A DNA stretch of 64,000 nt, taken from Ruegeria intermedia. GTDB taxonomy: Bacteria > Pseudomonadota > Alphaproteobacteria > Rhodobacterales > Rhodobacteraceae. The position numbers and the translations under genes were made by a program. Under the pieces are notes generated by a model. The model saw nothing but the letters and a program-made list of their open reading frames with translations, searched no databases and was not told the origin of the DNA. The number at the start of each line of letters is the position of its first letter. Positions within the stretch are counted from its first letter, which is position 1. The stretch covers positions 62,001-126,000 of the forward strand of contig NZ_FQVK01000010.1 in assembly GCF_900129345.1 (NCBI RefSeq). The letters are read 5' to 3'. Below, piece by piece: positions 5,195-46,149 of the stretch.

Positions 5195-6086
5195 CCCGCT
5201 TGGCGGCGTGAACTGAAAAGGTCCGCGATTGTGCGGCCGCTTGCCGTCTTGCAGCCTGTTCGTGAACTCTGCAGGAACAGCGGACGAAAATGCGATGCCT
5301 TGCAATGTGTTGGCGCATTGCAAGGTATTCACCCCGGAAACGCGACATGAGAAATTGCGCCCTTTGGGTGGGCTGCAGGCGAGACCTCCCCCTGTCTTTG
5401 TTGCAACTGCCTGGTAGCGCTGAGGAACGAGCGGTTTTCACCGGTGGACGGCGTGTCGAAGACCCGGCGACGGATATCGGTTGGGGGGCGCGGCTTCCGA
5501 CTAGGTGCGCGGAAGACGGGATCATCGCGGATCGAAGCCATTGGCCGCAGCCTGCCTCGGCGAAGCCCAGGAGATGGTGCTGAATGCCTTCGCGCAGGCG
5601 CTGTCTTTCCGTGCCGTGGATCACTGAAAATCCCAGGATCGTGGTGACCTGCGTCTCGCGCTCGGAGGAGCGCATCTTCCATCCCCGGATTCGGGCCTCC
5701 GCTAGCCCGCAGCCGCCTTTGCGACCCGCCGCGCCCAAGCCGCCCATTGCCGTTCCATCTGCCCGGCAAGTTCCATGGGAGGCGTGTCATCATGCCCCCC
5801 GCCCGCAGTTCGGACGGTGGGTCTCGGTAATGGCCGATGCCAAATATGACAACCGCGTTTCCGGACGACGCATCCCATCATGGAGCCATCGCCCAGGCGG
5901 GCAGCACGTCCTATCGGATCGCACACGGCAAACGCACAGAACCCCATGAAGATCGCGCGACACTCGGTGGGGCAAACTCAAAGGCCGAAACAGGGACAGT
6001 TTCGGACGATCATGGACCGACCCGGTTCCAGCGACATTTCAGCGGCCACGGTCAAGAAATCGGCAGGGCCAGTTCGCCGGCCTTTT
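5195..6086. other. Gene-poor stretch of about 890 bp
   Basis: I see no convincing gene here. Open frames on both strands are short, rich in Arg, Pro and Ser, lack recognisable motifs, and none has a good ribosome binding site. On the minus strand, short protein-like segments occur in different frames (for example MELAGQMERQWAAWARR in a frame ending near 5702), so a decayed gene is possible but not shown. The stretch lies between the ends of the converging scoB and the minus-strand transglycosylase and holds a strong hairpin at 5298-5325. Confidence 0.5.
5298..5325. repeat. Perfect 10-bp inverted repeat after scoAB
   Basis: CCTTGCAATG (5298-5307) pairs with CATTGCAAGG (5316-5325) around an 8-nt loop. 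No T-run follows on the plus strand, so it is not a classical terminator for scoAB. On the minus strand it is followed by CATTTTCG. Confidence 0.6.
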
Positions 6087-6953
6087 TCACTTCATGTTCT
6101 GAAACACGCAACCGTCGGAAATCAGATCGGGCGGCGTGGCGCACAAGGCGCGGGCGACCTGGAACGCCGCCAGCACCTTGGGAACATAGTCGCGGGTTTC
6201 AGCATAAGGCGGAACACCGTTGTGTTTGCGCACCGCACCTTCGCCCGCGTTGTAGCCGGCCAGCACGAGAATCGGATCGCTCCCGAACTCCTCCATCAAC
6301 CAGTCTAGATACTTCACGCCTCCGGCAATATTCTGCTCCGGCAGCATGCTGTCGGTCACCCCGAACCGCTTGGCGGTGGCCGGCATCAGCTGCATCAACC
6401 CCTGCGCCCCCGCCGAACTGACGGCCGTCGCGCGCCCGCCCGATTCCACCGACATCACCGCCAGCACCAGCGCGGGCGACACCTTGGTGCCCACGGTCGA
6501 GCGCAGAATATCCACGCCGCGCTGCTCGACGATGCGCTGCAGAGTTTGAAGCCGCGGCGAAGCGACCCCGACCGTTGCCAGCGCCTGAAGCGCCGGATCC
6601 AACCGCCCCGGACCGGCCTGGGCCATGTCCGGCGAAATCCTCTCCCAAAAGGCCTTGTACGCCCCTTCGGGCGTTTTCTCGGGCTGGATCTGCGGAAGGG
6701 TGGCCGAAGGTACTTTGGTGCGGGCAATGATGTCGGGCACGACAAGCGTGGCGCCCGTGCTGGGGGCCGATGGCGCCTTGGCGTGTTCCTCGGGCGAGAT
6801 TTGGACGGTTACTTGCGGGCGCGCACCCGGCTTGGGCGCCTTGATCCGTTTGTAGACGCCGCGTGGTTCGATATCGGTGGCCTGGGCCGGTGCGACGATA
6901 GCTGCCGCAAACGCCAAAACGCCGGCGCATGTCAGTACGCTCGGGATTCTCAT
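6087..6953 (-). CDS. Lytic transglycosylase (SLT domain), periplasmic
   Basis: This 288-residue protein has a Sec signal peptide (about residues 1-25, APAQA cleavage). A proline/lysine-rich linker follows, then a C-terminal family-1 lytic transglycosylase domain at roughly 155-270. The three motifs are visible: SVESGG with the catalytic glutamate near residue 167, GLMQLMPATA, and AGYNAGEGAV. The family cleaves the glycan strand of peptidoglycan with 1,6-anhydro-MurNAc formation. It stands alone, divergent from the flp/tad locus. A role in opening the wall for pilus assembly is possible from position but not shown. A C-terminal pair of cysteines could form a disulfide. Confidence 0.92.
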   Translation of the reverse strand: MRIPSVLTCAGVLAFAAAIVAPAQATDIEPRGVYKRIKAPKPGARPQVTVQISPEEHAKAPSAPSTGATLVVPDIIARTKVPSATLPQIQPEKTPEGAYKAFWERISPDMAQAGPGRLDPALQALATVGVASPRLQTLQRIVEQRGVDILRSTVGTKVSPALVLAVMSVESGGRATAVSSAGAQGLMQLMPATAKRFGVTDSMLPEQNIAGGVKYLDWLMEEFGSDPILVLAGYNAGEGAVRKHNGVPPYAETRDYVPKVLAAFQVARALCATPPDLISDGCVFQNMK

Positions 6954-7304
6954 CTTGCCTGCCTCATCTTCTTTTTCCGTTGATTTGTTACGCGAATCCG
7001 CGCTGCGGGCCAGAAAAACCGCGTGAATTGGGGCGTTTTTGCCTCATTTGCCGCAATTTTGCATCTTGCCTATCTGAACCGCGGCAGACGAAGAGATTTT
7101 TTCTTATTGTCTTTCCGCATGTTAGCTTATTGGTGACCAAAAAGTTAAACCTGAGGCAAAAAATTCGTTGTTTGGCCCAATTCCTGCCACGCACGAGGGG
7201 CAAACATAATGCCATACCGAGACGGTCATGAGCCGGTTGAGAGACAAAGCTCTGCAAGACCCCGAGGTTTTATTGACTTTTTGATCCTTTAGGAGGGACG
7301 CAAC
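6954..7304 (+). promoter_or_regulatory. Divergent upstream region of the pilin gene
   Basis: This 350-bp A/T-rich stretch separates the transglycosylase start from the first flp gene. It holds a perfect 11-bp inverted repeat, TTTTTGCCTCA at 7036-7046 and TGAGGCAAAAA at 7152-7162, with 105 bp between the arms. A short odd palindrome TTGGTGACCAA lies at 7130-7140. The ribosome binding site AGGAGGG is at 7291-7297. I cannot place the promoter with confidence. The distance would allow either DNA looping or a long leader stem. Confidence 0.45.
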
Positions 7305-7547
7305 ATGATCAAGTTCATCAAGAACTTCCGCAAAGACGAAGACGGCGCCGTGACTGTTGACTGGGTCGTTCTGACCGCAGCCGTCGTGGGCCTGGGCACC
7401 GTTGCCTACACGCAGATCTCGGGCGGCGCGACCGGCCTGGCAACCAACGTGAACAGCGCCCTGAGCGGTGCAACCGTTTCGACCGGCACCAACGCTGGCG
7501 CGGCCGGTGGTATCACCACCGCAGGTTCCGGCACCGGCGGCAGCTAA
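7305..7547 (+). CDS. flp: Flp-type pilin (major candidate)
   Basis: This 80-residue type IVb (Flp/Fap) prepilin has a short charged leader (MIKFIKNFRKDEDG). The processing site should be after the glycine, giving a mature N-terminus AVTVDWVVLT and a single hydrophobic segment at about residues 16-38. A Gly/Ser/Thr/Ala-rich tail follows. The usual Glu5-Tyr6 of Flp pilins is Asp-Trp here. AGGAGGG sits 7 bp before the ATG, and a strong terminator follows, so it is probably an abundant single-gene transcript. It should be cleaved by the CpaA-type peptidase encoded at 17746. Confidence 0.88.
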   Translation: MIKFIKNFRKDEDGAVTVDWVVLTAAVVGLGTVAYTQISGGATGLATNVNSALSGATVSTGTNAGAAGGITTAGSGTGGS

Positions 7548-7567
7548 GCCCCGAGCCATGCATTCCG

Positions 7568-7597
7568 GGCCGCGCCAAACTGGCGCGGCCTTTTTTT
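7568..7597 (+). terminator. Rho-independent terminator of the pilin gene
   Basis: A perfect 10-bp GC-rich stem (7568-7577 with 7581-7590) has a 3-nt loop and is followed directly by seven T. It begins 21 bp after the pilin stop codon. Confidence 0.92.
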
Positions 7598-7773
7598 AAC
7601 CAAAACTCAGGACTCCTAGTGTTGGAATAGGCATAGCCCCCTGCCTGGCCAACTTGCTGTCCGCCATGGACGGGCAGCCCGGTTGCACGAGGAGACTAAA
7701 GCAACGGTTTGGTCGGCACCTGCTGCGCAGTTCACGCAAGACACGGGACGCCGACGGGTAAGAGGTATACGCC

Positions 7774-8010
7774 ATGATTCGAGTTGCAAATGATTTCATT
7801 CGCGATGAAGACGGCGCTGTCACAATTGATTGGGTTGTCATTACCGCGCTGGTCGTGGGTCTGTCGATGGTGACCTATCTGGTCATCCAGACGGCGACAA
7901 CCAACATGGGCGGCAACGTTGATACGGCGTTGAGTCGCTCAACCGTCAGCACCGGCACCAGCGCCGGCGGGAACGGCGGCATCGCAACCGCGGGTACCAG
8001 CGGGAGCTGA
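7774..8010 (+). CDS. Second Flp-type pilin
   Basis: This 78-residue paralogue of the preceding pilin has a leader ending RDEDG, then AVTIDWVVIT and one hydrophobic segment. Its tail closely mirrors the first (VSTGTSAGGNGGIATAGT), while the middle differs (YLVIQTATTNMGGN). A ribosome binding site AGAGG lies before the ATG. The 226-bp gap and the terminator after the first gene mean it is probably transcribed separately or at a lower level, as expected for a minor pilin. Which of the two forms the filament cannot be told from sequence. Confidence 0.85.
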   Translation: MIRVANDFIRDEDGAVTIDWVVITALVVGLSMVTYLVIQTATTNMGGNVDTALSRSTVSTGTSAGGNGGIATAGTSGS

Positions 8011-8247
8011 CGCGGCGGAGCCCGAACCAACTTACCACAGGTCAGGCTTTTGCCCGACCAACGCAACCTGTATTTGCTCCGTGGTCTGCGCTTGTGCGGC
8101 GGCACTTTCGAGATTTCCTCAAACAACCCTGCTGAAAAGCTGGAATTTGTCCCACATTTCGACACAATTCGGATTTATCAAATACGCTGTTTCAATGTCT
8201 TGTTTGGGCCGATACACGTGCGACCAACAAAAGAATGAGGTGAACGC

Positions 8248-9129
8248 ATGCGAGCTGTTTTTGGACTTGTCCTGATCGTCGGGGTCGCCTTGGCAGGTGG
8301 CGCGGTGTACATGGCCCGAAATTACATTGCCGAGTATCAAAACGCACTGGCCCGGGAAAGACAGGCAGCCCAGGAGGCGCTTGCGAATGCCAAGGTCGAC
8401 GTGGTGCCGACCGTCGGCGTCATCGTCGCGAATCGCAAACTGAAATATGGTGAACCGCTGACCGCCGAGGATGTGCGCGTGGTCGAGTGGCCTGAAAATG
8501 CGATCCCCGAAGGCACGTTCACCGACATGACCGTTCTGTTCCCCGAAACGGGCGAGAACGAACGTTTCGTCCTGCGCGCGATGGAGAAGGACGAAGCCAT
8601 CATGACGGTGAAGATCACCGAACCGGGTGAACCAGCCGGCCTGACCTCGATGCTGGAAAAGGGCAAACGCGCCTTTGCCATCAGTGTGGACGTGGCCTCG
8701 GGCGTTTCGGGCTTCCTGCGTCCCGGGGACGTGGTCGATGTGTACTGGACCGGGTCGCTGCGGGGCGCGGTCGAGGGCGCGAACGGCGAAATCACGCGCC
8801 TGATCCAGCCGAATATCGAATTGATCGCGGTCGACCAGACGGCCGGGTCCGACGTGACCGGCACGACCATTGCGCGGACGGTGACGGTGGCCGCCACCCC
8901 CGAACAGATCGCAGCGCTGGCGCAGGCGCAGAACACCGGTCGGCTGTCCCTGGCCTTGGTGGGTGTTCAGGATGAAACCGTCGCAAGCGCAATCGAAATG
9001 GACCAGCGCAAGCTGTTGGGCATCAAGGAGAGCGCCCCCGCCCCGGTCAAAAAAGAAGAGAAGGTCTGCACCATTCGGACCCGCAGGGGCGATCAGATCG
9101 TCGAGACACCGATTCCCTGTACAAACTGA
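8248..9129 (+). CDS. cpaB: Flp pilus assembly protein CpaB (RcpC)
   Basis: This 293-residue inner-membrane-anchored periplasmic protein has a transmembrane segment at about 4-22 and a short coiled stretch. A SAF domain starts near residue 48 (VPTVGVIVANRKLKYGEPL), followed by the RcpC/CpaB domain with SVDVASGVSGFLRPGDVVDVYW near residue 150. In tad systems CpaB/RcpC supports the secretin in the periplasm. Two cysteines near the C-terminus could form a disulfide. The start follows GAGGTGA, 7-13 bp upstream. A terminator-like hairpin follows, which partly separates it from cpaC. Confidence 0.93.
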   Translation: MRAVFGLVLIVGVALAGGAVYMARNYIAEYQNALARERQAAQEALANAKVDVVPTVGVIVANRKLKYGEPLTAEDVRVVEWPENAIPEGTFTDMTVLFPETGENERFVLRAMEKDEAIMTVKITEPGEPAGLTSMLEKGKRAFAISVDVASGVSGFLRPGDVVDVYWTGSLRGAVEGANGEITRLIQPNIELIAVDQTAGSDVTGTTIARTVTVAATPEQIAALAQAQNTGRLSLALVGVQDETVASAIEMDQRKLLGIKESAPAPVKKEEKVCTIRTRRGDQIVETPIPCTN

Positions 9130-9164
9130 CGCTTGCTCAACAACTTGCCAGCAGAATTCGGAAC

Positions 9165-9198
9165 GAAGCCGCGCTTTTTGCGCGGCTTCTCTCGTTTT
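9165..9198 (+). terminator. Terminator-like hairpin after cpaB
   Basis: GAAGCCGCGC (9165-9174) pairs perfectly with 9180-9189 around a TTTTT loop. TCTCGTTTT follows. It lies 35 bp after the cpaB stop and suggests that cpaC has its own promoter. Confidence 0.75.
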
Positions 9199-9244
9199 GG
9201 TTGTTGCCCATTGTCCACATAAGGAAAATTCCGGAAACCCTTGA

Positions 9245-9256
9245 TTATTGCAATAA
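9245..9256. promoter_or_regulatory. 12-bp perfect palindrome upstream of cpaC
   Basis: TTATTGCAATAA is a perfect palindrome 80 bp before the cpaC ATG, just after the cpaB terminator. It is a candidate operator; no known consensus was matched with confidence. Confidence 0.4.
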
Positions 9257-9335
9257 AACCCGAATTCGCGCACAGTTCGCCATCATAGGGCAACAGACCC
9301 ACAAAAACTGAGTGGTGATCGGAGAGGCAGGTCAC

Positions 9336-10745
9336 ATGACATTTCGTTCCTGGATTGGCGCAACCCTTTTGGGGGTGGCGCTTGTTACGAGCCCGGCCGG
9401 CTTCGATGCCGCTTGGGCCGAAAATCTTCGCGTGGTCAAGAAAGGTACGGCGGAAACGCTGGATGTGCCGATCAACCGCGCCATCGTGGTTGAAAGCGAA
9501 ACACCCTTCGCCGAGCTCAGCATCGCGAATGCGGGCATCGCGGATATTTCGTCGCTTTCGGACCGCACCATTTAAGTGCTGGGCAAGGCGCCCGGCATGA
9601 CGACGCTGACCCTGTTCGATGGCGCCGGCAATCTGATCACCAATGTGCGCGTTCGGGTCGCCCCGGACGTGACCGAATTCAAAGAGCGTCTGAAGCAGAT
9701 TCTGCCAAACGAACCGATCGAGGTGCGCACGGCCAATGACGGGATCGTGCTGTCCGGCACGGTGTCCAGCTCGGCCAAGCTGGCGCGGGCTCTGGAACTG
9801 GCTGAACGCTATGCTCCCGAACGCGTGTCGAACCTGATGAATGTGGGCGGTGTGCAGCAGGTCATGCTGAAGGTCCGCTTTGCAGAGATGAACCGCACGG
9901 TCGCCAAGAACCTGTCGGCCTCACTGGGCTTTGGCGGCGGTGACGTGACCGGCGGCATCAACACTCTGAACAACCAGGGCGCCCTGACCAACGCCCTGGC
10001 CAACAATATTCCGGTGACCCAGTCCAACACGGGCGCCATCCTGTTCGGCTTCGGCGCCGGGTCGACCCAGGTTCGCCTGCTGCTCGAAGCGCTGGAGGCC
10101 AAGGGCCTGGCCCGCAGCCTGGCCGAGCCGAACCTGTCGGCCCTGTCCGGCCAGGAGGCGACATTCCTCGCCGGTGGCGAGGTTCCGATTCCGGTACCGC
10201 AGGATGACGGCGTGGTTGCCATCGAATACAAGGCCTTCGGCGTCGAGATCGACTTCGTGCCACGGGTCGTCGACGGCGACCTGATCAACCTCGAGATGGC
10301 CGCCTCGGTGTCCAGCATCGACACCAGCTCGAACTTCACCATCAACGGCGACAGCGTTCCCAGCTTCATCACGCGCCAGACCAGCACGACGGTCGAACTG
10401 CGCGACGGGGAAAGCTTTGCGATCGCGGGCCTGATCCAGGACGATTTTACCGACCTGAGCAATCAGATCCCCTGGCTGGGCGACGTTCCGGTGCTGGGCG
10501 CGCTGTTCCGCAGCGCCGAATACCAGCGCGAGCAGAGCGAACTGGTGATCATCATCACCGCGCATCTCGTGTCGCCGACGCGGGGTGAGGCTCTGGCCCT
10601 GCCCACGGACCGGGTCAAACCGCCAAGCGAATTCGACCTTTTCGTCAATGGTCGTGTGGCCCGCACCGAACGCACGGGCAACGGCGCGGCGTCGGAAGTC
10701 GCCAAACAGGATTTCGGCAGCTCTTACGGCTATGTCCTGGACTGA
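9336..10745 (+). pseudogene. cpaC: Secretin CpaC/RcpA, interrupted by an in-frame stop
   Basis: The frame encodes an outer-membrane secretin of the tad system of about 469 residues: signal peptide (about 1-27, ending AAWA), pilus secretin N-terminal domain, a BON-like stretch near 105-165, and the secretin domain from about 170 (EPNLSALSGQEATFLAGG, FGVEIDFVPRV). Codon 80 is TAA (9573-9575) where a tyrosine is expected between DRTI and VLGKAPG. Homology runs on in the same frame, so a single base change is enough. GTG directly follows the stop and could restart translation, but that product would lack the signal peptide and N-domain. GGAGAGG precedes the ATG. Real mutation, readthrough or sequence error cannot be told apart here. 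Confidence 0.88.
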
Positions 10746-10761
10746 TAGGGAGGACAGACCA

Positions 10762-11391
10762 ATGCAGAAGTGGATGATCACACTGGGTCTTGCAGTCGCG
10801 GTTGCCAACTGCACCCGCGAAGCCGGCTACGAGATCGACCAAGGCGCCTTCGGCAACGCGACCCTGAACAACGTTCAGGTCATGAACGGCGAGTTGTCTT
10901 ATGGCCAAATCCTGGCTCAGCGATTCGCGGCCGAGGTCCCGACCCAGATCAACTTTGCCTTCGACAGCGCCCAGCTGGACGACTCGGCACGCCGGATCCT
11001 CTTGCAGCAGGCCAACTGGATCAAACAGTTCCCCGAGGCCCGGTTCCGCGTCTATGGCCACACGGATGCGGTTGGGTCCCAAGGCTACAACTACAACCTG
11101 GGTCTGCGCCGGGCCAATGCGGCGGTGAATTTCCTGGTTCAGCAGGGGATCTCGCGTTCGCGTCTCGAAGCAGTGGCGTCGTTCGGCAAGACCAAGCCGT
11201 TGGTGGCGACACCGAATCGCGATCGTCGCAACCGACGCACCGTGACTGAGGTATCCGGCCTTGTGGACCGCCACCCCAACATCTTGGACGGGAAATACGC
11301 CGATGTCATCTACCGCGAGTATGTCGAAAGCGCGACCTACCCGAGCAAGTTGAGCCGCGAGACGGCGCTGGGCGAGACCAGCGAACAATAA
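10762..11391 (+). CDS. OmpA-family protein of the tad locus
   Basis: This 209-residue envelope protein has a hydrophobic N-terminus and a cysteine at position 17 (VANC). That is a weak lipobox because Asn precedes the Cys. A C-terminal OmpA domain covers about residues 65-165, with INFAFDSAQLDDSAR and YGHTDAVGSQGYN, the peptidoglycan-binding signature. It starts 16 bp after cpaC, preceded by GGGAGG. In similar loci an OmpA-like protein sits between cpaC and cpaE, and it may tether the secretin to the wall (inference). The last 40 residues lie beyond the OmpA domain and are unrecognised. Confidence 0.87.
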   Translation: MQKWMITLGLAVAVANCTREAGYEIDQGAFGNATLNNVQVMNGELSYGQILAQRFAAEVPTQINFAFDSAQLDDSARRILLQQANWIKQFPEARFRVYGHTDAVGSQGYNYNLGLRRANAAVNFLVQQGISRSRLEAVASFGKTKPLVATPNRDRRNRRTVTEVSGLVDRHPNILDGKYADVIYREYVESATYPSKLSRETALGETSEQ

Positions 11392-11393
11392 TT

Positions 11394-11440
11394 GGAAATC
11401 GGGCGGCATCGTCGCCCGTTTCCCTACAATTGGTTTTTTT
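11394..11440 (+). terminator. Probable terminator after the ompA-like gene
   Basis: A stem of 11 bp with one bulged T (11394-11405 with 11413-11423) lies 3 bp after the stop. Seven T follow at 11434-11440, 10 bp further on. The gap between stem and T-run weakens the call. Confidence 0.5.
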
Positions 11441-11470
11441 GCGCCCCATTCTTGCCCCAGTTCCAAGCGA

Positions 11471-11511
11471 CATTGTGAACAATTGGGTGACCTGCGGCCA
11501 AAATTGGCCGC
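11471..11511. promoter_or_regulatory. Inverted repeats upstream of cpaE
   Basis: Two inverted repeats lie 80-120 bp before the cpaE ATG: ATTGT-GA-ACAAT at about 11472-11483 and GCGGCCAA-AA-TTGGCCGC at 11494-11511. They follow the terminator of the ompA-like gene, so cpaE and the genes after it may be separately controlled. Binding protein unknown. Confidence 0.4.
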
Positions 11512-11589
11512 AACAGGGCGACAGCAAACCGACACACGATTCTCGACCGTATCGACGTTTGCTGCGCTCTTACGACGAGGATTGTGTTA

Positions 11590-12825
11590 ATGACGAGCGC
11601 CACGCCGCAAAACGATGACACCGCCATTCTGGCTTGTACGATCAGCCGGGACGTTCAGAACTTCGACCTGTTGATCGAGGACATGGAAACCGCCTTGGGT
11701 GAACGCTGGGGCGATCTTGGTTTTGCCGAAGCGCTGGCCTTTTTCAACCAACCCGAGGCCGAAACCCTTCAATTCGTCGCCCTGGCCATCGATGGAGAGG
11801 ATGAAGACGATCTGACGTTGATGGGCGAGATCATCACCAAGGCCAAGGAAAAGAACATCAAGGTCGTTCTGATCGCCGAAGACGTCACGCCGGCGGCATT
11901 GCACCAACTGCTGCGCAAGGGGGCCGACGAGTTCGTCCCCTACCCTCTGCCGGAAAACGAGCTGCAGGAAGCCATCGAGCGGATGAACCAGCCCGATCCC
12001 GAACCGGTGCCGCAACCGACAGCGGTACCATTGGCGGCCGGGACATCCAAGGAAGGCGCGCTTTTGGTGGTTCACGGATTGGCCGGCGGTGTCGGCGCCA
12101 CGACCATGGCGGTGAACCTCGCCTGGGAACTGGCAACCGTTTCGGGCAAGGATGCCCCTCGGGTCTGCCTGATCGATCTGGATCTTCAGTACGGGACCGT
12201 ATCGACCTATCTGGATCTTCCCCGCCGCGAAGCCGTGTTCGAGATGCTGTCGGACACAGCCGCCATGGATGATGACGTGTTCGCACAGGCGCTGCAGAAA
12301 TTCGATGACAAGCTCGACGTGCTGACGGCCCCGTCGGACATGGTGCCGCTTGACCTGCTCACGCCCGAAGACATTCAGCGCGTGATCGACATGGCCCGCA
12401 AACACTATGACTACGTTCTGATCGACATGCCCAAGACACTGGTGCATTGGTCCGAAACGGTATTGCAGGCCGCGCATGTGTATTTCGCCCTGATCGAACT
12501 CGACATGCGCTCGGCCCAGAACGCGCTGCGTCTCAAGCGGGCGCTGCAGGCCGAGGAACTGCCCTTCAACAAGTTGCGGTTCGCATTGAACCGCGCTCCG
12601 AAATTCACCGATCTCAACGGCAAGAGCCGGGTCAAGCGCATGGGCGAGAGCCTGGGCATTTCGATCGACCTGCGACTGCCGGATGGTGGCAAGCCGGTTC
12701 TTCAGGCCGGCGATCACGGATTGCCGCTGGCCAATTCCGCCGCCAAGAATCCGCTGCGTCGGGAAATCGCCAAACTTGCTCAGTCATTGCACAACCTCGG
12801 CAGCAACAGCGCCGAGGCCGCATAA
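11590..12825 (+). CDS. cpaE: Pilus assembly ATPase CpaE (TadZ)
   Basis: This 411-residue protein has an N-terminal receiver-like domain (about 10-130) and a MinD/ParA-type ATPase domain from about 150. A deviant Walker A lies near 163-175 (GGVGATTMAVNLA) and LIDLDLQYGT follows. The lysine expected in the Walker A is Ala-Thr here, as seen in several TadZ proteins. In tad systems this protein places the apparatus at the pole. The ATG at 11590 is preceded by GAGG at 9 bp; a GTG six bases earlier is less likely. It starts the run cpaE-cpaF-tadB-tadC. Confidence 0.93.
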   Translation: MTSATPQNDDTAILACTISRDVQNFDLLIEDMETALGERWGDLGFAEALAFFNQPEAETLQFVALAIDGEDEDDLTLMGEIITKAKEKNIKVVLIAEDVTPAALHQLLRKGADEFVPYPLPENELQEAIERMNQPDPEPVPQPTAVPLAAGTSKEGALLVVHGLAGGVGATTMAVNLAWELATVSGKDAPRVCLIDLDLQYGTVSTYLDLPRREAVFEMLSDTAAMDDDVFAQALQKFDDKLDVLTAPSDMVPLDLLTPEDIQRVIDMARKHYDYVLIDMPKTLVHWSETVLQAAHVYFALIELDMRSAQNALRLKRALQAEELPFNKLRFALNRAPKFTDLNGKSRVKRMGESLGISIDLRLPDGGKPVLQAGDHGLPLANSAAKNPLRREIAKLAQSLHNLGSNSAEAA

Positions 12826-12852
12826 TCACAGCCCCCAAGGGGAGGAGCCGCC

Positions 12853-14301
<1,449 letters not shown>

Positions 14302-14312
14302 GAGAGCCGGAC

Positions 14313-15281
14313 ATGCAACTGCCTACCGAGGCGCTTATCTATGTCGCGATCTTCGTCGGGGTTCTGGCGCTGGTCGAGGGCATCTATCTGGTGGCTTTCG
14401 GCAAGTCCATCAGCCTGAACAGCAAGGTCAACCGCCGTCTGGACATGCTGGACAAGGGTGTCGGCCGCGAACAGGTTCTGGAACAGCTGCGCAAGGAAAT
14501 GCAGCAGCACATGAAATCCCAGAGCATCCCGCTCTATTCGCTGCTGGCCGACAAGGCGCAGAAGGCGGCAATCGCCTTCAGCCCGCGCCAGTTGATCATG
14601 ATGATGGCCCTGCTGTCGATCGTCGCCTTCATGGGGCTGAGCATCGGCACCCGCACCGAGACACTTTTGCGGGTCGCGCTGTCGGTGGCGATCGGGGTCG
14701 GCGCGGTCTATGCATGGGTGAACAACAAGGCCAAAAAGCGGATGGCCATGCTGGAGGAGCAACTGCCGGATGCGGTCGAACTTATGGTGCGATCCTTGCG
14801 GGTGGGCAACCCCTTCGTATCGTCCGTCCAGATCGTCGCCAACGAGGTCGAAGACCCGTTGGGCACCGAATTCGGCGTGATCGCCGACGAATGCGCCTAT
14901 GGCCGCGACGTGGGCGAAGCGCTCAAGGACATGGCCGAGCGTCTGGGCATGCAGGACCTTCGCTTCTTGGCCGTTGCGGTGGGCATTCAACAGCAGTCCG
15001 GCGGCAACCTGGCCGAAATCCTTGCCGGTCTTGCCAAGGTGATCCGGGCCCGCTTCCGTCTGTTCCGGCGCGTCAAGGCCATCACAGCCGAGGCGCAATG
15101 GTCAGGCAAGTTCCTTTCAGGGTTCCCTCTCGGCTGCCTGCTGTTCATCCTGGTGAAGGACCCCAATTATTATGACTCGGTCCTTGATCACCCGTGGTTC
15201 ATCCCGGCCTGTTTCGTTGTCGGCATCATGCTGACCCTTAACCTGATCGTGATGCGCATCCTCACCAACATCAAGGTCTGA
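14313..15281 (+). CDS. tadB: Tad platform protein TadB
   Basis: This 322-residue inner-membrane platform protein has one N-terminal transmembrane helix (about 7-28), a pair near 90-130, and two at the C-terminus. A T2SSF domain between them (LPDAVELMVRSLRVGNPF near 150; ADECAYGRDVGEAL) is typical of GspF relatives. With TadC it forms the base on which CpaF acts. AGGAG precedes the ATG, and the gene lies 11 bp after cpaF and 10 bp before tadC. Confidence 0.95.
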   Translation: MQLPTEALIYVAIFVGVLALVEGIYLVAFGKSISLNSKVNRRLDMLDKGVGREQVLEQLRKEMQQHMKSQSIPLYSLLADKAQKAAIAFSPRQLIMMMALLSIVAFMGLSIGTRTETLLRVALSVAIGVGAVYAWVNNKAKKRMAMLEEQLPDAVELMVRSLRVGNPFVSSVQIVANEVEDPLGTEFGVIADECAYGRDVGEALKDMAERLGMQDLRFLAVAVGIQQQSGGNLAEILAGLAKVIRARFRLFRRVKAITAEAQWSGKFLSGFPLGCLLFILVKDPNYYDSVLDHPWFIPACFVVGIMLTLNLIVMRILTNIKV

Positions 15282-15291
15282 TGGGGCAAGC

Positions 15292-16275
15292 ATGGAAATC
15301 CTGAACCAGATCAATGAATTTCTGACCCAGCAGCTGGGAGAGTTCGGGCCGCTGATCGTCGTGGGTGTGCTGGGCCTGTTCATGATCCTGATCACCATCC
15401 CCATTCTGCTGAACCAGCCCGAGGACCCCCTGAAGAAGCTGCAGCGCGCCAACGCCGCGCCCAATCGCGAAAAGAAGGGCAAAAAGGATAAGCTGCGCAA
15501 TTCCAGCCGCAACGAACAGCTGGAGAAATTCGCCACCTTTCTCGAGCCGCAGAACCAGGAAGAATATTCCGCCATGGAGCTCAAGCTGCGCCAGGCCGGT
15601 TACCGGTCGAAGGACGCGGTTCGTTTCTTCCACTTTGCGCAGTTCGCTTTGGGAATTTTCGGTATCATCATCGGGGTGTTGCTGGTCACCGTGTTCAGCA
15701 ACGGGCAGGAATTCACCGGCCAGCAGATGATGATCCGCGTTCTGGTGCCCGGTGCCATCGGATACTATCTTCCCAAATACTGGATCACGCGCCGCATCGA
15801 AGAACGGAAGGAGGCCATCACCGCCGGCTTCCCCGATACGCTCGACCTGATGCTGGTCTGCGTGGAAGCGGGTCAGTCGCTGGACCAGGCCATCGTTCGC
15901 GTGGCGTCCGAGATGAAGGCTTCGTATCCGGACATTGCGCAGGAATTCGAAACCGTCGCGTACGAGATGAAGGCCGGCAAGGACAAGGACACGGTTCTGC
16001 GCGACTTCGGCACCCGCTGCGGCGTGCAGGACGTCAGTTCGTTCGTGACCGTGATGATCCAATCGGCGACTTTCGGCACCTCGATCGCCGATGCATTGCG
16101 GGTCTATGCGGGCGAGATGCGTGACAAGCGGGTTATGCGCGCGGAAGAGGCCGCAAACAAGTTGCCAACCAAAATGACGCTTGCCACAATGATGCTGACG
16201 GTCCCGCCACTGCTGATCATTCTGATCGGGCCGTCGGCCAAAGGGATCATGGACTTTACGAACATGAGCAAATAG
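15292..16275 (+). CDS. tadC: Tad platform protein TadC
   Basis: This 327-residue second T2SSF-domain protein has helices near 18-38, 115-145 and at the C-terminus. The GFPDTLDLMLVCVEAGQSLDQA segment near residue 180 is characteristic of TadC. It is thought to form a heteromeric platform with TadB in the inner membrane. It is preceded by GGGGCAAGC and ends 4 bp before the next gene, so the following TPR lipoprotein is probably translationally linked. Confidence 0.95.
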   Translation: MEILNQINEFLTQQLGEFGPLIVVGVLGLFMILITIPILLNQPEDPLKKLQRANAAPNREKKGKKDKLRNSSRNEQLEKFATFLEPQNQEEYSAMELKLRQAGYRSKDAVRFFHFAQFALGIFGIIIGVLLVTVFSNGQEFTGQQMMIRVLVPGAIGYYLPKYWITRRIEERKEAITAGFPDTLDLMLVCVEAGQSLDQAIVRVASEMKASYPDIAQEFETVAYEMKAGKDKDTVLRDFGTRCGVQDVSSFVTVMIQSATFGTSIADALRVYAGEMRDKRVMRAEEAANKLPTKMTLATMMLTVPPLLIILIGPSAKGIMDFTNMSK

Positions 16276-16279
16276 CCGG

Positions 16280-16861
16280 ATGCAGACAACGCTGCTTCGC
16301 GTCACGAGAACGGGGATTTTCATCCTGACAACCACCGCGGCCGCATCCGCGGTGGTTTCGTGTACCGAGACCGGCCTGACCCAAGGCCCCTACCCCCCGG
16401 GGATCGACCCCAAGGGCGGCCCGGTCGACGAAGTCGCCGTGGGCAACCGCCTGATGGCTGCCGGAGAATACGAACTGGCGCTGGAGTCTTTCACCCGCGC
16501 GGCGCTGGCCGAAGGGATGACCGCCGAAATCCTGACCTCGATCGGAACCGCCAATCTTGGGCTCAGGCGTCTTGGCCAGGCGGAACCGCTATTGCGCGAA
16601 GCCGTGGAAAAAGACCCGGAATGGCCGATCGCCTGGAACAATCTGGGCGTGTTGCTGATGGAAACCGGTGAATATGCCGAAGCCTCGCATGTGTTCCGAC
16701 GGGCCTATGCGCTGGACAATGGCGAAAGTGACGCAATCCGGGACAATCTGCGCTTGGCACTCGCAAAAATGGAAAATCCTGTTAATATTACCACGCAAGA
16801 ACAAGAATTCCGGCTTGAGCAACAAGGGGATGGGGCATTCCTGTTGCGCAGGAACCGGTAA
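16280..16861 (+). CDS. tadD: TPR lipoprotein of the tad locus (TadD-like)
   Basis: This 193-residue protein has a signal peptide with a lipobox VVSC at about residue 28. At least three TPR-like repeats lie at about 55-155 (GEYELALESFTRAA; WPIAWNNLGVLLMETGEYAEA). TadD proteins are outer-membrane or periplasmic lipoproteins needed for Flp pilus assembly, perhaps as secretin pilotins. It starts 4 bp after tadC. A second, longer TPR lipoprotein follows 29 bp downstream, so the TadD role may be shared or divided. Confidence 0.86.
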   Translation: MQTTLLRVTRTGIFILTTTAAASAVVSCTETGLTQGPYPPGIDPKGGPVDEVAVGNRLMAAGEYELALESFTRAALAEGMTAEILTSIGTANLGLRRLGQAEPLLREAVEKDPEWPIAWNNLGVLLMETGEYAEASHVFRRAYALDNGESDAIRDNLRLALAKMENPVNITTQEQEFRLEQQGDGAFLLRRNR

Positions 16862-16890
16862 CAGAGGCACGAGCAGCAAGGGACGCAAAA

Positions 16891-17742
16891 ATGCGCCACA
16901 GCTTTCTGATTCCCACAGTCGCGGCATGCGGGCTGATCTTGACGGCCTGCGCCAAGGAAACCGAGCAGGAAAAGGTCGAACGCACGTTCCAGGAAGTGAA
17001 CGTCATCGACGAGACCAACCTGAACGACGTGATGTTGAATGCGTCGAACCCGAACGAGGCCGTCACCTATTTCCAGGGTGCCGCCAGCAAGAACCCCGAT
17101 CGGATCGACCTGCAGCGTGGGCTGGCCATTTCGCTGGTTCGCGCCAAACGCAGCACCGAGGCCGCGGTGGCGTGGAAACGTGTGACCACGATGCCCGGCG
17201 CCACCAGCGCCGACCGGGTGGAATATGCGGATGCGCTGGTCCGCAGCGGAAACTGGAAAGAGGCCAAGGCGGTCCTTGATTCCGTGCCGCCGACGCACGA
17301 GACCTTCAAGCGATACCGTCTCGAAGCGTTGGTCGCCGATGCCAACAAGGATTGGAAACGCGCCGATCATTTCTATGAGACCGCCGTGGGCCTGACGACC
17401 CGACCGGCCGGTGTCATGAACAATTGGGGGTATTCCAAGCTGAGCCGCGGCCAGTATGCCGAAGCCGAGCGGCTGTTCACCGAGGCCATCCGCCAGGACA
17501 AAAACCTGTTCACAGCCAAGAACAATCTGGTCCTGGCGCGGGCCGCACAGGGCAACTATTCCATGCCCGTGATTCCCATGACCCAGGCCGAACGGGCCGA
17601 GTTGCTGAACACGATGGCGATCTCGGCCGTCAAGCGCGGCGACGTGAACCTGGCCAAGAACCTGTTCCGCGAGGCCATCGCGACGCACCCGCAGCATTTC
17701 GACGCGGCGGTGCGATCGTTGCGCGCATTCGAGGACGCCTGA
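16891..17742 (+). CDS. Second TPR lipoprotein of the tad locus
   Basis: This 283-residue protein has a clear lipoprotein signal (LTAC, Cys20) followed by an acidic/basic linker. TPR repeats run from about residue 50 to 270 (AVTYFQGAASKNPDRIDLQRG; MNNWGYSKLSRGQYAEAERL; LAKNLFREAIATHPQHF). It has more and longer repeats than the preceding gene and is not simply a duplicate. The likely role is as a periplasmic scaffold for the pilus machine. It lies between the first TPR gene and cpaA, with only 3 bp to the latter. Confidence 0.85.
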   Translation: MRHSFLIPTVAACGLILTACAKETEQEKVERTFQEVNVIDETNLNDVMLNASNPNEAVTYFQGAASKNPDRIDLQRGLAISLVRAKRSTEAAVAWKRVTTMPGATSADRVEYADALVRSGNWKEAKAVLDSVPPTHETFKRYRLEALVADANKDWKRADHFYETAVGLTTRPAGVMNNWGYSKLSRGQYAEAERLFTEAIRQDKNLFTAKNNLVLARAAQGNYSMPVIPMTQAERAELLNTMAISAVKRGDVNLAKNLFREAIATHPQHFDAAVRSLRAFEDA

Positions 17743-17745
17743 TAG

Positions 17746-18291
17746 ATGACCATCCCGTCTGCCGCGGCGCTGTGGTTCCTGCCCTTTGTGCTGCCCATCT
17801 GCCTGTATGTCGCCTTCACCGACATGCGTGAAATGCGCATCAAGAACCACGCGGTCGTTGCCTTGGCGGCCGTGTTCGTGGTGGTCGGCCTGGTCGCGGT
17901 TCCGCCCTGGTCGGGCGACTGGCTGCCCGGAACGCTCGGCCCGCTGTCCTTTTCGCTGCCGGTCTACGCCTGGCAGTTGCATCACCTGATCGTGGTCCTG
18001 ATACTTGGCATCCTGCTGAACGCCGCGGGTGTCATGGGGGCCGGGGACGCCAAATTCTGCGCCGCCGCCGCCCCCTATGTTTGGTTGGGCGACCTTCTGT
18101 CGGTTGCCGCCATCCTGATGGCCACGGTCCTGGCGGCGTTCACGACCCACCGACTGGCGAAACACACCGGCCTGCGCCGGTTCGCGCCGGAATGGAAAAG
18201 CTGGGAGCAGGGCAAGAAGTTCCCCATGGGTCTGGCGCTTGCCGGGGCTCTGGCCATCTACCTGATTCTCGGCGCCGTTTACGGTTCGTAA
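17746..18291 (+). CDS. cpaA: Prepilin peptidase CpaA (TadV)
   Basis: This 181-residue A24-family aspartic peptidase lacks the methylase domain of PilD. The two catalytic aspartates are visible in FTDMREMRIKN (about residue 26) and in GAGDAK (about residue 97, the GxGD motif). About five hydrophobic helices are expected. It would cleave the two Flp prepilins at 7305 and 7774 after their leader glycine. It sits at the end of the cpaE-to-cpaA run, 3 bp after the TPR gene. Confidence 0.93.
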   Translation: MTIPSAAALWFLPFVLPICLYVAFTDMREMRIKNHAVVALAAVFVVVGLVAVPPWSGDWLPGTLGPLSFSLPVYAWQLHHLIVVLILGILLNAAGVMGAGDAKFCAAAAPYVWLGDLLSVAAILMATVLAAFTTHRLAKHTGLRRFAPEWKSWEQGKKFPMGLALAGALAIYLILGAVYGS

Positions 18292-18413
18292 ACCATCTTT
18301 CCTGCGCCGCGCCCTCGCCATGGTACTGCCACAAAGCTGCGCCAGATTTTCCACATCCGCCCCTTACCCGAGGGGGCGACCGTGTGACATTTTTTGATGG
18401 ACGAGCAGCGCTC

Positions 18414-19721
18414 ATGAATATGCAGACCACTTCCGTGATGGCCCCCCCTTCCCCCAAAGGGCTGAAGGAAATGCAGCTTCCGCTGGTGATGATGCGGGAC
18501 ATCCTTCTCAAGACCATCTTCCGCAAGAACGTCGACACGGTCACCCAGATTTCCCAGGCGATCTGCCTGCCGGCGTCGGTCACGCAGGAGCTGGTGGACA
18601 TCGCCCGCGAACAAAAGCTGCTCGAGGCGACCGGCACGCTGAACGCCAACAGCGGCAACGAGATGGGCTATCAACTGACCGATGCCGGCAAGGCGCGAGC
18701 GCTGGATGCGCTGAGCCAGTCCGAATATTTCGGCGCGATGCCTGTGCCGCTGGAAGTCTACCGCGAACAGGTCAAACGCCAGTCGATCCGCAACATCCAG
18801 GTCACGCGCGAGCAACTGACCAGCGCCATGGGTCATCTTGTCCTTCCCGACAGCCTGCTGGACCATCTGGGGCCTGCGGTCAGCGCCGGCCGGTCGATCC
18901 TGATGTATGGTCCGCCGGGCAACGGCAAATCCTCGATCTCGAACGGGATTCGCGATGCGTTGGGCGACAATGTCTATGTGCCCCGCGCCATCGAATATGC
19001 CGGCCAGGTGATCACCGTCTATGACCCGATCGTGCACAACGCGATCGAGGACGAACCCGACGACGCCAACAGCCTGCGCCGCCGCAAACGGTTCGATACG
19101 CGCTATGTCAAATGTGAACGCCCCACGGTGATCACCGGCGGCGAACTGTCGCTGAGCATGCTGGACCTGGTCTACAACCCCACGGCGCGCACCTATCAGG
19201 CGCCGCTGCAGCTGAAATCGACCGGCGGCATCTTCATCGTGGACGACCTTGGCCGCCAGGCCGAGCCGCCGCAGGCCCTGATCAACCGGTGGATCGTTCC
19301 GCTGGAAGAGGGCAAGGACATTCTGGGCCTGCAGTCGGGCGAAAAGTTCGAGGTGCCCTTCGACACGCTGGTGATCTTTTCGACCAACTTCCACCCCAAC
19401 GAGATCTTCGACCAGGCCGCGCTGCGCCGGATCTTCTTCAAGATCAAGATCGACGGCCCGAACCAGGAAAACTTCCTGAAGATTTTCGCCATGGTCGCCC
19501 GCAAGCGCGGCATGCCGCTGGACGAGGCCGCGCTGGTGCATCTGCTGAAGGTCAAGTATCCGACCATCAACAATGTCTATGCGAACTATCAACCGATCTT
19601 CCTGATCGACCAGATGATCTCGATCTGCGAGTTCGAGGGCATCCCCTATCAGATGAGCCCCGAATTGATCGACCGCGCCTGGGCGAACATGTTCGTCAAG
19701 GACGAGAAGATCGTGAAATAG
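18414..19721 (+). CDS. AAA family ATPase linked to the tad locus
   Basis: This 435-residue protein has an N-terminal winged-helix-like region at about 25-110 (TQISQAICLPASVTQELVDIA, then GYQLTDAGKARAL). The AAA ATPase domain carries Walker A GPPGNGKSS near 166, Walker B IFIVDDLG near 272, and a sensor-1-like FSTNFHP. A C-terminal helical lid follows. No signal or membrane segment is seen, so it is cytoplasmic. A related ATPase is often found beside tad genes in this group; its task is not established. Start: ATG at 18414, a second ATG at 18420 is possible. The 122-bp gap after cpaA has a weak hairpin (18358-18378) and a T6 run. Confidence 0.8.
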   Translation: MNMQTTSVMAPPSPKGLKEMQLPLVMMRDILLKTIFRKNVDTVTQISQAICLPASVTQELVDIAREQKLLEATGTLNANSGNEMGYQLTDAGKARALDALSQSEYFGAMPVPLEVYREQVKRQSIRNIQVTREQLTSAMGHLVLPDSLLDHLGPAVSAGRSILMYGPPGNGKSSISNGIRDALGDNVYVPRAIEYAGQVITVYDPIVHNAIEDEPDDANSLRRRKRFDTRYVKCERPTVITGGELSLSMLDLVYNPTARTYQAPLQLKSTGGIFIVDDLGRQAEPPQALINRWIVPLEEGKDILGLQSGEKFEVPFDTLVIFSTNFHPNEIFDQAALRRIFFKIKIDGPNQENFLKIFAMVARKRGMPLDEAALVHLLKVKYPTINNVYANYQPIFLIDQMISICEFEGIPYQMSPELIDRAWANMFVKDEKIVK

Positions 19722-19740
19722 GGCACGGCCTGGTACGCTC

Positions 19741-20220
19741 CTACTGCGTGAAGAGAGCGTCGACAATCTGCATCTGCCTGCCGCGGTCACCGTCGGTCAG
19801 GTCGCTGATCCGGGTTCCCGGCTCGGCGTGGAATCCGGCCTGTTCCAGCCGTTGCAATCCGGTTTCCAGATCCAGCCCGCTCAGTTGAATGACCACAGCC
19901 GCATCCGCGTCGTTGATCGCCCGGAAAACGGCCAGCATCGGGTTTCCGCCGCCCCCAATGGGCAGGAAAGACAGGGCCAGCAGCCCTGCGCACCCCGCGA
20001 TGATCGCCAGGGCCGCGGGGCGCTTGAAATAGACAGTGAAGGGCCGCCAGTTCAATATCAAATGTGCCGCAACCCCGATCATCATCGCCCAACCCGCCCA
20101 TTCATGGATCGACTTGTTGAAGCCGCTGTTCAAATGAAAGAACATGAGGCTTCCCGTCGTTCCCATGATCAGGAAACTGCCGATGGTCAAAGGTGTCGCC
20201 CAGCTGCGCAGATTGGACAT
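19741..20220 (-). CDS. DUF4405 small membrane protein
   Basis: This 159-residue protein has transmembrane helices near 10-30 and 40-60 and a third near 70-90. Conserved histidines (FFHLNSGFNKSIHEWAGW; AAHLILNWRPF) resemble the cytochrome b561-like DUF4405 family, where histidines may bind haem. The last 65 residues form a soluble tail with LQRLEQAGFHAEPGT. The ATG is preceded by GGAGAGA. It is convergent with the AAA ATPase and divergent from the helicase. Substrate and redox partner are unknown. Confidence 0.78.
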   Translation of the reverse strand: MSNLRSWATPLTIGSFLIMGTTGSLMFFHLNSGFNKSIHEWAGWAMMIGVAAHLILNWRPFTVYFKRPAALAIIAGCAGLLALSFLPIGGGGNPMLAVFRAINDADAAVVIQLSGLDLETGLQRLEQAGFHAEPGTRISDLTDGDRGRQMQIVDALFTQ

Positions 20221-20331
20221 AGTTCTCTCCAGGATTCGTAGTGCCGAAAGTGACACGTTCACGGCACTGCGATCCGTCGCGGTTTTTCGATCTATTTCCG
20301 CGCGGGCGACCACGACCACCCGGTCCGCTAC

Positions 20332-22743
20332 ATGATCAGGCCACCTGACCGGATAGACGCCTGGTTTTCCGCACGCGGCTGGTCCCTGCACCCGCATCAA
20401 CAGGCCATGATCGACCGGGCGCAGGCCCCGGCAACGCTGTTGATCGCGCCCACGGGCGGCGGCAAGACGATGGCCGGGTTCCTGCCCTCGCTGATCGAAC
20501 TGGCCGATGGGCGGCACGCGGGGCTGCACACGATCTATGTCTCGCCTCTCAAAGCGCTGGCCGCCGACATCAAGCGCAACCTGCGCGGCCCGGCCGACGA
20601 GATGGGCTTGCCGATCCGGATCGAGGACCGCACCGGTGACACCACCCCCACCCAGAAAAAGCGCCAGCGCGTGGACCCGCCGCATATCCTGCTGACGACC
20701 CCGGAAAGCCTGGCGCTGCTGACGTCCTACGAGGATGCGCCGCGCATGTTCCAAGGCGTCCAGCGCGTGATCGTTGACGAAATACATGCGCTGGCCGACA
20801 GCAAGCGGGGCGATCAGTTGATGCTGGCCCTGGCCCGGCTTCAGACCCTGTGCCCCGATCTGCGGCGTGTGGGCCTGTCGGCGACGGTCGAGGACCCGGA
20901 CGCCATCGCGCGCTTTCTGGCCCGTCACCCCGACCCTTGCGACATCGTTCTGGCCGACCCCGGCCCCGACCCCGATATCGCCATGTTGCAGACGGCCGAA
21001 ATGCCGCCCTGGGCCGGGGGCGGCGCGGCCTATGCCATTCCGGCGGTGCTGGAGCAGGTCCGGCAGCACAAGACGACGCTGATCTTCCACAACACCCGCG
21101 CCCAGGCCGAGATCTTCTTTCACAACCTGTGGCTGGCCAATGACGAAGGCCTGCCCATCGGCATCCACCACGGCAGCCTCGACCGGCAACAGCGCGAACG
21201 GGTCGAGGCGGCGATGGTCCGTGGAGACCTGCGCGCCATCGTCTGCACCGGCAGCCTCGATCTGGGGATCGATTGGGGCGACGTGGACCTTGTGATCCAG
21301 ATCGGCGCCCCCAAGAACGTCAAGCGCCTGGTCCAGCGGATCGGGCGGGCCAACCACCGCTACAACGCGCCGTCCAAGGCCCTGCTGGTGCCTGCCAACC
21401 GGTTCGAGGTGGTCGAATGCGTTGCCGCGCTGGAGGCCGCGCGCGAACACGATCTGGACGGCGAGCCGCGCGGCCCCGGACCGCGTGACGTCTTGTGCCA
21501 ACACATCCTGATCGCGGCCTGCGCCGGGCCGTTCGATGCCGACGCCCTGTATGCCGAGGTCACCTCGGCCGGTCCCTATGCCGATCTGTCCCGCACCGCC
21601 TTCGATGCCTGTCTGGAGTTCTGCGCAACTGGTGGCTATGCGCTGCGGGCCTATGACCGCTGGCAACGCCTGCAACAGCGCCCCGACGGGTTGTGGCAGC
21701 TGCGCGACCCGCGCGCGGCGCAACGCATCCGCATGAACCTGGGCACGATCCAGGACAGCGATACCCTGAAGGTCCGGCTGAAACGCAACCGGGGCGGCAA
21801 ACCCCTGGGCGAGGTCGAAGAGTCCTTTGCCGCATCACTGACCCCCGGCGACACCTTCCTGATCGGCGGTCAGATCGTGCGCTATGAAGGGCTGCGCGAA
21901 ATGGTTGTCGAGGTCACGCGCCGTGCGGACAAAAAGCCCAAGATCGCCACCTTCTCGGGCACCAAGTTCGCCACTTCGACCCAACTGAGCGACCGCATCC
22001 TGCGGATGTTCGCACAGCCCGACTGGCCGCAACTGCCCGAACATACGGGTGAATGGCTGGACCTGCAGCGCCGGATGTCGCGGCTGCCCGGGCGTGACCG
22101 GCTGTTGATCGAGAGCTTTCCCAATGACGGCCGCGAAAACCTGTGCGTCTACGGCTTTGCCGGACGCAACGCGCAACAGACGCTGGGCCTGCTGCTGACC
22201 AAACGGATGGAGGAAACCGGACTTGCGCCGCTGGGCTTTGTCGCGACCGACTATGCCACGCTGATCTGGGGACTGGACGCGGTGACCGACCCCAGCCCCC
22301 TGTTCCAGATCGAGGCCCTGCGCGACGGGCTGGACAACTGGCTGGCAGGCAACGCGGTGATGAAACGGACCTTCCGCGCCTCGGCCACCATCGCCGGGCT
22401 GATCGAGCGCAACTCGGGCGGCCAACGCAAAAGCGGGCGGCAGGCGACCTTTTCGTCGGACATCCTGTACGACACGCTGCTGAAATACGACCCCGACCAC
22501 CTGCTGATGCAGATCACCCGCGAAGAAGCCATGCGCGGGCTGGTCGATTTCGGACGGATCGAGGCGATGATCGCGCGCATCGGCGACCGGATCGACCTGA
22601 TCCGGCTGGACCGGGTGTCACCGCTGGCGGCGCCGTTGCTGCTCGAGGTGGGAAAGGTCCCGGTCAAGGGCGCGGCCGAAGAGCGGCTGCTGGCCGAGGA
22701 AAGCGCCCGCCTGCTGGCGGCTGCAGGTCTGTCGCCGGACTGA
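20332..22743 (+). CDS. Ligase-associated DNA damage response DEXH-box helicase
   Basis: This 803-residue SF2 helicase is related to Lhr. Walker A APTGGGKT is near residue 40, the DEXH box VDEIHALADSKRG near 148, motif III GLSATVEDP near 185, and motif VI QRIGRANHR near 340. The Lhr-type winged-helix and C-terminal domain follow from about 430 on. In bacteria this family is usually grouped with an ATP-dependent DNA ligase, an exonuclease and the PdeM phosphoesterase. Here only pdeM follows, 43 bp downstream. It starts at the ATG at 20332, 111 bp from the divergent DUF4405 gene. Confidence 0.9.
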   Translation: MIRPPDRIDAWFSARGWSLHPHQQAMIDRAQAPATLLIAPTGGGKTMAGFLPSLIELADGRHAGLHTIYVSPLKALAADIKRNLRGPADEMGLPIRIEDRTGDTTPTQKKRQRVDPPHILLTTPESLALLTSYEDAPRMFQGVQRVIVDEIHALADSKRGDQLMLALARLQTLCPDLRRVGLSATVEDPDAIARFLARHPDPCDIVLADPGPDPDIAMLQTAEMPPWAGGGAAYAIPAVLEQVRQHKTTLIFHNTRAQAEIFFHNLWLANDEGLPIGIHHGSLDRQQRERVEAAMVRGDLRAIVCTGSLDLGIDWGDVDLVIQIGAPKNVKRLVQRIGRANHRYNAPSKALLVPANRFEVVECVAALEAAREHDLDGEPRGPGPRDVLCQHILIAACAGPFDADALYAEVTSAGPYADLSRTAFDACLEFCATGGYALRAYDRWQRLQQRPDGLWQLRDPRAAQRIRMNLGTIQDSDTLKVRLKRNRGGKPLGEVEESFAASLTPGDTFLIGGQIVRYEGLREMVVEVTRRADKKPKIATFSGTKFATSTQLSDRILRMFAQPDWPQLPEHTGEWLDLQRRMSRLPGRDRLLIESFPNDGRENLCVYGFAGRNAQQTLGLLLTKRMEETGLAPLGFVATDYATLIWGLDAVTDPSPLFQIEALRDGLDNWLAGNAVMKRTFRASATIAGLIERNSGGQRKSGRQATFSSDILYDTLLKYDPDHLLMQITREEAMRGLVDFGRIEAMIARIGDRIDLIRLDRVSPLAAPLLLEVGKVPVKGAAEERLLAEESARLLAAAGLSPD

Positions 22744-22786
22744 GAATCAGGTTGAAACTACGCGCGGATCAGGCAAGGACCGGACC

Positions 22787-23449
22787 ATGAACAGCCTCGC
22801 GTTCTCGTTTTCCGGTGTGCGCCTGCACGCCCTTGGCTCGGGCGCCCTGTGGTGGCCCGATCACGACCTGTTGTGCGTGTCGGACCTGCATCTCGGAAAA
22901 TCGGCCCGCATGGCCCGGCGGGGCGCCCCCGCCCTGCCCCCGTATGAAACCCGCGACACGCTTGCGCGTCTTGCCGCGGACCTGAAGCGGACCGGGGCCA
23001 AGACCGTGATCTGCCTCGGAGACAGCTTCGACGACATCGAGGCCGCTGATACGCTACACGAAACTGATCGACTGCAAATCCCGGCTCTGCAGGCCGGTCG
23101 GATGTGGATCTGGATCGAAGGGAATCACGATCCCGGACCCGTTTCCCTGGGTGGGACTCATCTGGCCGAGTGGCGCCGCGCGCCGCTGGTATTCCGCCAC
23201 ATCGCCCAAAACGATGCGCGGGGCGAGGTCTCGGGTCACTATCACCCGAAGGTGCGGCTGCAGGCCCGGGGCCGTTCGATCACACGACCTGCGTTTCTCT
23301 TCGACGACCGGCGCCTGATTCTTCCGGCCTACGGCACCTATACCGGCGGGCTGCGCAGCAGTGACACCGCGTTGTCCGGCTTGATGGGGCCCGACGCGCG
23401 CGCGATCCTGACCGGGGAACAGCCGCGCCTCACCGCCATGCCGCGGTGA
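22787..23449 (+). CDS. pdeM: Ligase-associated endonuclease/phosphoesterase PdeM
   Basis: This 220-residue calcineurin-like metallophosphoesterase carries the metal-binding motifs in order: SDLHLGKSA near 35, GDSFDDIEA near 83, GNHDPGP near 110, and GHYHPKV near 150. PdeM is the nuclease partner of the Lhr-type helicase in a predicted DNA repair module. It is 43 bp after the helicase on the same strand. No ligase or exonuclease gene is present within the window on either side. Confidence 0.9.
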   Translation: MNSLAFSFSGVRLHALGSGALWWPDHDLLCVSDLHLGKSARMARRGAPALPPYETRDTLARLAADLKRTGAKTVICLGDSFDDIEAADTLHETDRLQIPALQAGRMWIWIEGNHDPGPVSLGGTHLAEWRRAPLVFRHIAQNDARGEVSGHYHPKVRLQARGRSITRPAFLFDDRRLILPAYGTYTGGLRSSDTALSGLMGPDARAILTGEQPRLTAMPR

Positions 23450-23453
23450 CCGG

Positions 23454-40832: not shown

Positions 40833-40929
40833 GGCAGCCTCCAAAAACCGCCCCCAAATTCATTGGATGACGGTAGAAAGAGAATGCGTCAAAACCGTGG
40901 CGAAAATCCACAAAACTCCCGCAAATGGC

Positions 40930-45382: not shown

Positions 45383-45473
45383 TGCGCGCCTTTCTTCAGC
45401 AGGGGTTTCAGCACGGGTCTCTTTGAGGTAAAGGCATCCGCGAGCAAGGCCAACCCATCAAAGGACTGCCCCG

Positions 45474-46127: not shown

Positions 46128-46149
46128 TCCGCTGATCCCACGCACCACC

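Follow-up and report, generated by a model that had tools for sequence, protein, structure and literature searches.

The window, a 64,000-nucleotide stretch of the Ruegeria intermedia genome at C10:62001-126000, carries a tad cluster at 7305..18291, with all of its genes on the plus strand. A flp-like pilin gene (7305-7547), which has no Pfam match and was named by its position and look, is followed by cpaB (8248-9129), by cpaC, the gene for the Tad/Flp pilus secretin of the RcpA/CpaC family (9336..10745), and by a cpaD/OmpA-like gene (10762-11391), cpaE (11584-12825), cpaF (12853-14301), tadB (14313-15281), tadC (15292-16275), two genes for tadD-like TPR proteins (16280-16861 and 16891-17742) and a gene for a tadV-like peptidase (17746-18291). 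The company of cpaB, cpaE, cpaF, tadB and tadC supports the assignment of the secretin gene to CpaC/RcpA. Apart from cpaC, every gene of the cluster is free of internal stops, in agreement with the sequence-only reading that the other tad genes are intact.

The cpaC frame runs from an ATG at 9336 through 469 codons to a TGA at 10743-10745, and is open except for codon 80, which is TAA (9573-9575). The local codons, GAC CGC ACC ATT TAA GTG CTG GGC, are in frame with the ATG, and re-reading the sequence showed that the coordinates and codon number first given for the stop, and the open frame on both sides of it, were right. A protein search of the R. intermedia genome recovered the same TAA at C10:71336-72742, but this is the same assembly sequence and hence no independent confirmation. 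As assembled, the gene has no continuous frame for a full CpaC.

When the TAA is read through, the 469-residue product has the domains of a Tad secretin. Pfam places T2SS-T3SS_pil_N (PF13629) at residues 39-109, a BON domain at 115-171 with a score of 27.8 bits, barely above the 27-bit cut-off, and Secretin (PF00263) at 252-412 (E 1.9e-43). The protein also matches the sequence of RcpA, the Tad secretin of P. aeruginosa (PDB 8odn), at E 9.2e-49. Because pil_N spans residues 39-109, the stop lies inside that domain, and the expected product of ordinary translation (codons 1-79, 9336..9572) consists of an N-terminal signal-like stretch and 41 of the 71 residues matched to pil_N. Residues 1-28 look like a Sec signal peptide, judging by their appearance alone. 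The gene is present in a single copy: the protein search returned one CpaC match in the genome, and the only match to the Pfam secretin family is the same cpaC gene, so that no paralogue able to compensate for its loss was found. Plasmids searched for near matches yielded none.

To place the stop in its evolutionary context, we compared cpaC with its homologs in other genomes. The nearest relatives used were Silicibacter lacuscaerulensis ITI-1157 (G021), a strain catalogued as Ruegeria arenilitoris HKCCA0515 (G001) and a MAG (G047), whose CpaC proteins each share about 94% identity with the read-through CpaC of the window. All 54 Ruegeria genomes searched, R. intermedia included, contain cpaC, and none of the other 53 has a stop in it. 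In a draw of genomes at the family level, 329 of 394 gave a cpaC match at E 1e-60, and among the matches listed the stop again occurs in R. intermedia alone. The codon aligned with the stop is TAT at 79 of 110 loci, TAC at 30 and TAA only at the locus described here; every one of the 109 other loci, a count that includes repeats, thus has a tyrosine codon at the position; they comprise 80 loci plus 29 genus loci that largely repeat genomes among the 80. The stop is more than a chance feature because the frame is open and under purifying selection on both sides of it and because tyrosine is found at all 109 loci. TAC is the codon in all three nearest relatives, and a single C-to-A change (TAC to TAA) is therefore the simplest origin. 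The earlier proposals of a family tyrosine at codon 80 and of a one-base origin for the stop were therefore borne out.

The gene was under constraint until the recent past. Whole-cpaC dN/dS is 0.051 against ITI-1157, 0.052 against HKCCA0515 and 0.035 against the MAG; for codons 81-469 the values are 0.043, 0.038 and 0.031, at or below the level of most other tad genes (range 0.037-0.331), while codons 1-79 have higher values (0.117, 0.177 and 0.066). Over 173 codons on which the three relatives agree, the window differs by 32 synonymous changes, three amino-acid changes and the stop; the amino-acid changes, at codons 3, 14 and 46, all lie upstream of the stop, and none follows it. The baseline ratio among the relatives is 11 amino-acid to 123 synonymous changes. 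If evolution was neutral once the stop had arisen, and under a simple model of substitution, the unconstrained share of the gene's own branch has a 95% upper bound of 0.048-0.066, varying with the assumed transition bias. A share of at most about 5-7%, together with the low dN/dS against three relatives, indicates that the stop is very recent, as had been suggested from the sequence, or absent in reality. The stop is missing from the relatives, the remainder of the gene is constrained and the genome holds no intact paralogue, a combination that characterizes a recent nonsense pseudogene.

The tad cluster is itself more divergent than its surroundings. In the region 6079-23759 of the window, the DNA identity of the cluster to ITI-1157 is 84-85%, compared with 96% before and 93% after it, and a similar dip over the cluster is seen between ITI-1157 and HKCCA0515. 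For most tad genes dS to ITI-1157 is about 0.8-1.4, and it is 0.31 and 0.16 in the two genes that come next; cpaF has a dS of 0.33 and looks mosaic. Exchange of alleles between lineages is a possible source of the dip. The tadD-like gene at 16280-16861 has evolved more quickly than most other genes of the cluster, with 65-77% identity to the three relatives and dN/dS of 0.16-0.19, and has 193 codons in the window and in HKCCA0515 versus 185 in ITI-1157.

We infer that the TAA is probably real in the strain, and that it represents a very recent nonsense mutation that would be expected to abolish Tad pili. The principal rival, an intact cpaC in the strain and a TAA that arose by error in base calling or assembly, is less probable but deserves serious weight, since a base-call error looks exactly like a mutation that has had no time to leave a trace. 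The change is an isolated single base, cpaC has no sign of decay, the remaining tad genes are intact, and the genome is a 3.86 Mb draft in 86 contigs, 99.99% complete, all of which is compatible with an error. Against this, a stop is produced by just 87 of the 4212 possible single-base changes of cpaC, and a survey of conserved genes turned up neither a second convincing in-frame stop nor a convincing frameshift. The survey compared ITI-1157 with R. intermedia over the window and four further stretches, about 214 kb of R. intermedia sequence, and was limited to ORFs of at least 100 aa that showed 8 or more synonymous differences and a dN/dS under 0.25, so that fast-evolving and nearly identical genes fell outside it; 140 ITI-1157 ORFs (48 + 16 + 24 + 28 + 24), comprising 48,587 codons, passed this filter.

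Six of the 140 ORFs were flagged as interrupted in R. intermedia, and after inspection only cpaC was convincing (two stops were counted for it, one of which is located upstream of the true start). Two of the others are ITI-1157 ORFs with over-extended starts. In an aldehyde dehydrogenase ORF the stop falls at alignment position 26, far ahead of the domain, which begins at residue 388; in an ORF of the C3 stretch a one-base indel sits between two divergent open genes; and in the ORF at 40482-40892 of the window the stop is at alignment position 10 of 136, and the HKCCA0515 version is open in the window. An apparent second lesion at 45411-46540 of the window was also rejected, the compared frames being antisense to the apparent real coding strand; the one-base indel there lies outside the part beginning ATGAAATTC. 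The reverse comparison flagged eight R. intermedia ORFs in ITI-1157, one of them explained by the intergenic indel of the C3 stretch. A 558-codon ORF at 57980-59656 of the window is uninterrupted there and in HKCCA0515 and is split into two frames in ITI-1157, by a frameshift or by an error in the ITI-1157 sequence. Since the five other flags dissolve, cpaC is the sole convincing lesion in the sample, and the clean consensus of the sampled sequence speaks against an assembly that is rich in errors throughout. Because the sample is clean, and because Tad pili can be dispensed with in culture, we judge a real mutation to be likelier than an error.

Full-length CpaC could still be made if the UAA were decoded by a suppressor tRNA, reassigned as a codon or passed by programmed readthrough. 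The constraint downstream of the stop and the preserved frame are what this would predict. UAA, however, is an efficient stop recognized by both release factors, and signs of recoding were not seen elsewhere: the 140 sampled ORFs contain no second convincing in-frame stop, and cpaC is free of stops in the 53 other genomes of the genus. An Rfam scan of the R. intermedia genome located 40 tRNAs above the cut-off, none of which has the anticodon TTA when typed by ARAGORN; four weaker Rfam matches lie below the cut-off, outside this set of 40. Patterns that combine a UUA anticodon loop with a standard T-loop matched tRNA-Lys, tRNA-Leu(TAG) and six further places, at which ARAGORN predicted no tRNA. 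The scan is incomplete because it missed tRNA-Tyr itself: neither the Rfam scan nor the patterns located tRNA-Tyr, tRNA-Ser(GCT) or tRNA-Ile(GAT) in the genome, probably because the scan or the draft falls short. An unlocated tRNA-Tyr leaves room for an altered copy, but tRNA-Tyr-directed patterns found nothing in ITI-1157 either, so that its absence is a gap in the scan and not evidence. On balance, readthrough, which the sequence-only reading had offered as an explanation, is very improbable. More improbable still is the elaboration that decoding of the UAA, by an ochre-suppressing tRNA or by condition-dependent readthrough, preserves the Tad pili and turns the amount of secretin into a translational switch that governs attachment.

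Translation might instead restart behind the stop, where two start-like codons lie in frame on the plus strand: a GTG immediately after it (9576..9578), which the sequence-only reading had put forward as a possible rescue, and an ATG at codon 88 (9597..9599). Their predicted anti-Shine-Dalgarno pairing energies are -3.2 and -4.2 kcal/mol, respectively, compared with -7.5 kcal/mol at the cpaC ATG at 9336. Among 188 internal start-like codons of the tad genes the median is -3.2 and the 25% quantile is -4.0 kcal/mol, which puts the GTG exactly at the median and the ATG in the better quarter, slightly beyond the quantile; some annotated starts are hardly stronger, that of tadC having -4.7 kcal/mol, and by pairing energy a restart at the ATG is conceivable. 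With pairing of this strength, a product that would be deprived of the N-terminal signal-like stretch and would by inference stay in the cytoplasm, and over half of the pil_N domain gone, it is scarcely credible that a restart at either codon supplies a protein that is exported by another route or has a cytoplasmic role.

The recent nonsense mutation would act in a simple way. A single TAC-to-TAA substitution would replace a conserved tyrosine in the N-terminal periplasmic domain of the cpaC product, ordinary translation would halt after 79 residues, and no secretin would be made. Loss of Tad pili is to be expected because cpaC is the sole secretin gene found in the genome, leaving the pili with no other secretin for export. 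Polarity on cpaD and the later genes is possible. The mutation would have arisen in the sequenced strain or in its immediate ancestry, perhaps in culture with no need for Tad pili or under attack by a pilus-dependent phage.

Published accounts are consistent with a requirement for the secretin. In Caulobacter, CpaC has been assigned as the secretin that forms the pilus pore, and Tad machines are gone when cpaD, which encodes its predicted partner, is deleted (PMC13170226); in P. aeruginosa the secretin channel is formed by RcpA (PMC10499894). Proteomics has revealed CpaC in three strains of Ruegeria (PMC13313319), and the gene is therefore expressed in the genus. Where a phage that depends on pili was used for selection, the authors anticipated that pilus production would be defective in most of the resistant mutants (PMC12607857). 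The tad genes of Rhodobacterales have been linked to colonization of phytoplankton, and some members of the order are described as having none (PMC8383342). Without the pili, attachment need not simply disappear: in Bradyrhizobium, deletion of Tad is reported to raise adhesion (as cited in PMC13313319). A search of the literature produced no paper that combines cpaC with a premature stop and no direct precedent for loss of Flp pili in the laboratory.

A real mutation and a sequence error are both biologically ordinary, and general understanding is unchanged by either. The practical consequences differ. If the base is real, the strain is expected to be without Tad pili, and experiments with it on attachment or host colonization would give a misleading picture of the species; in the case of an error, the secretin would be wrongly called broken by automatic annotation.

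Compared with CpaC of Caulobacter and RcpA of P. aeruginosa (8odn), the gene in the window is alike in its secretin and pil_N domains, in its sequence match and in its tad neighborhood, but as assembled, with a stop at codon 80, it differs from them in that it cannot yield the full protein by ordinary translation. In combining a single-base stop with an otherwise constrained gene for a surface structure and intact neighbors, it resembles the recent nonsense alleles, and the losses of surface structures acquired in the laboratory, that are familiar from other bacteria.
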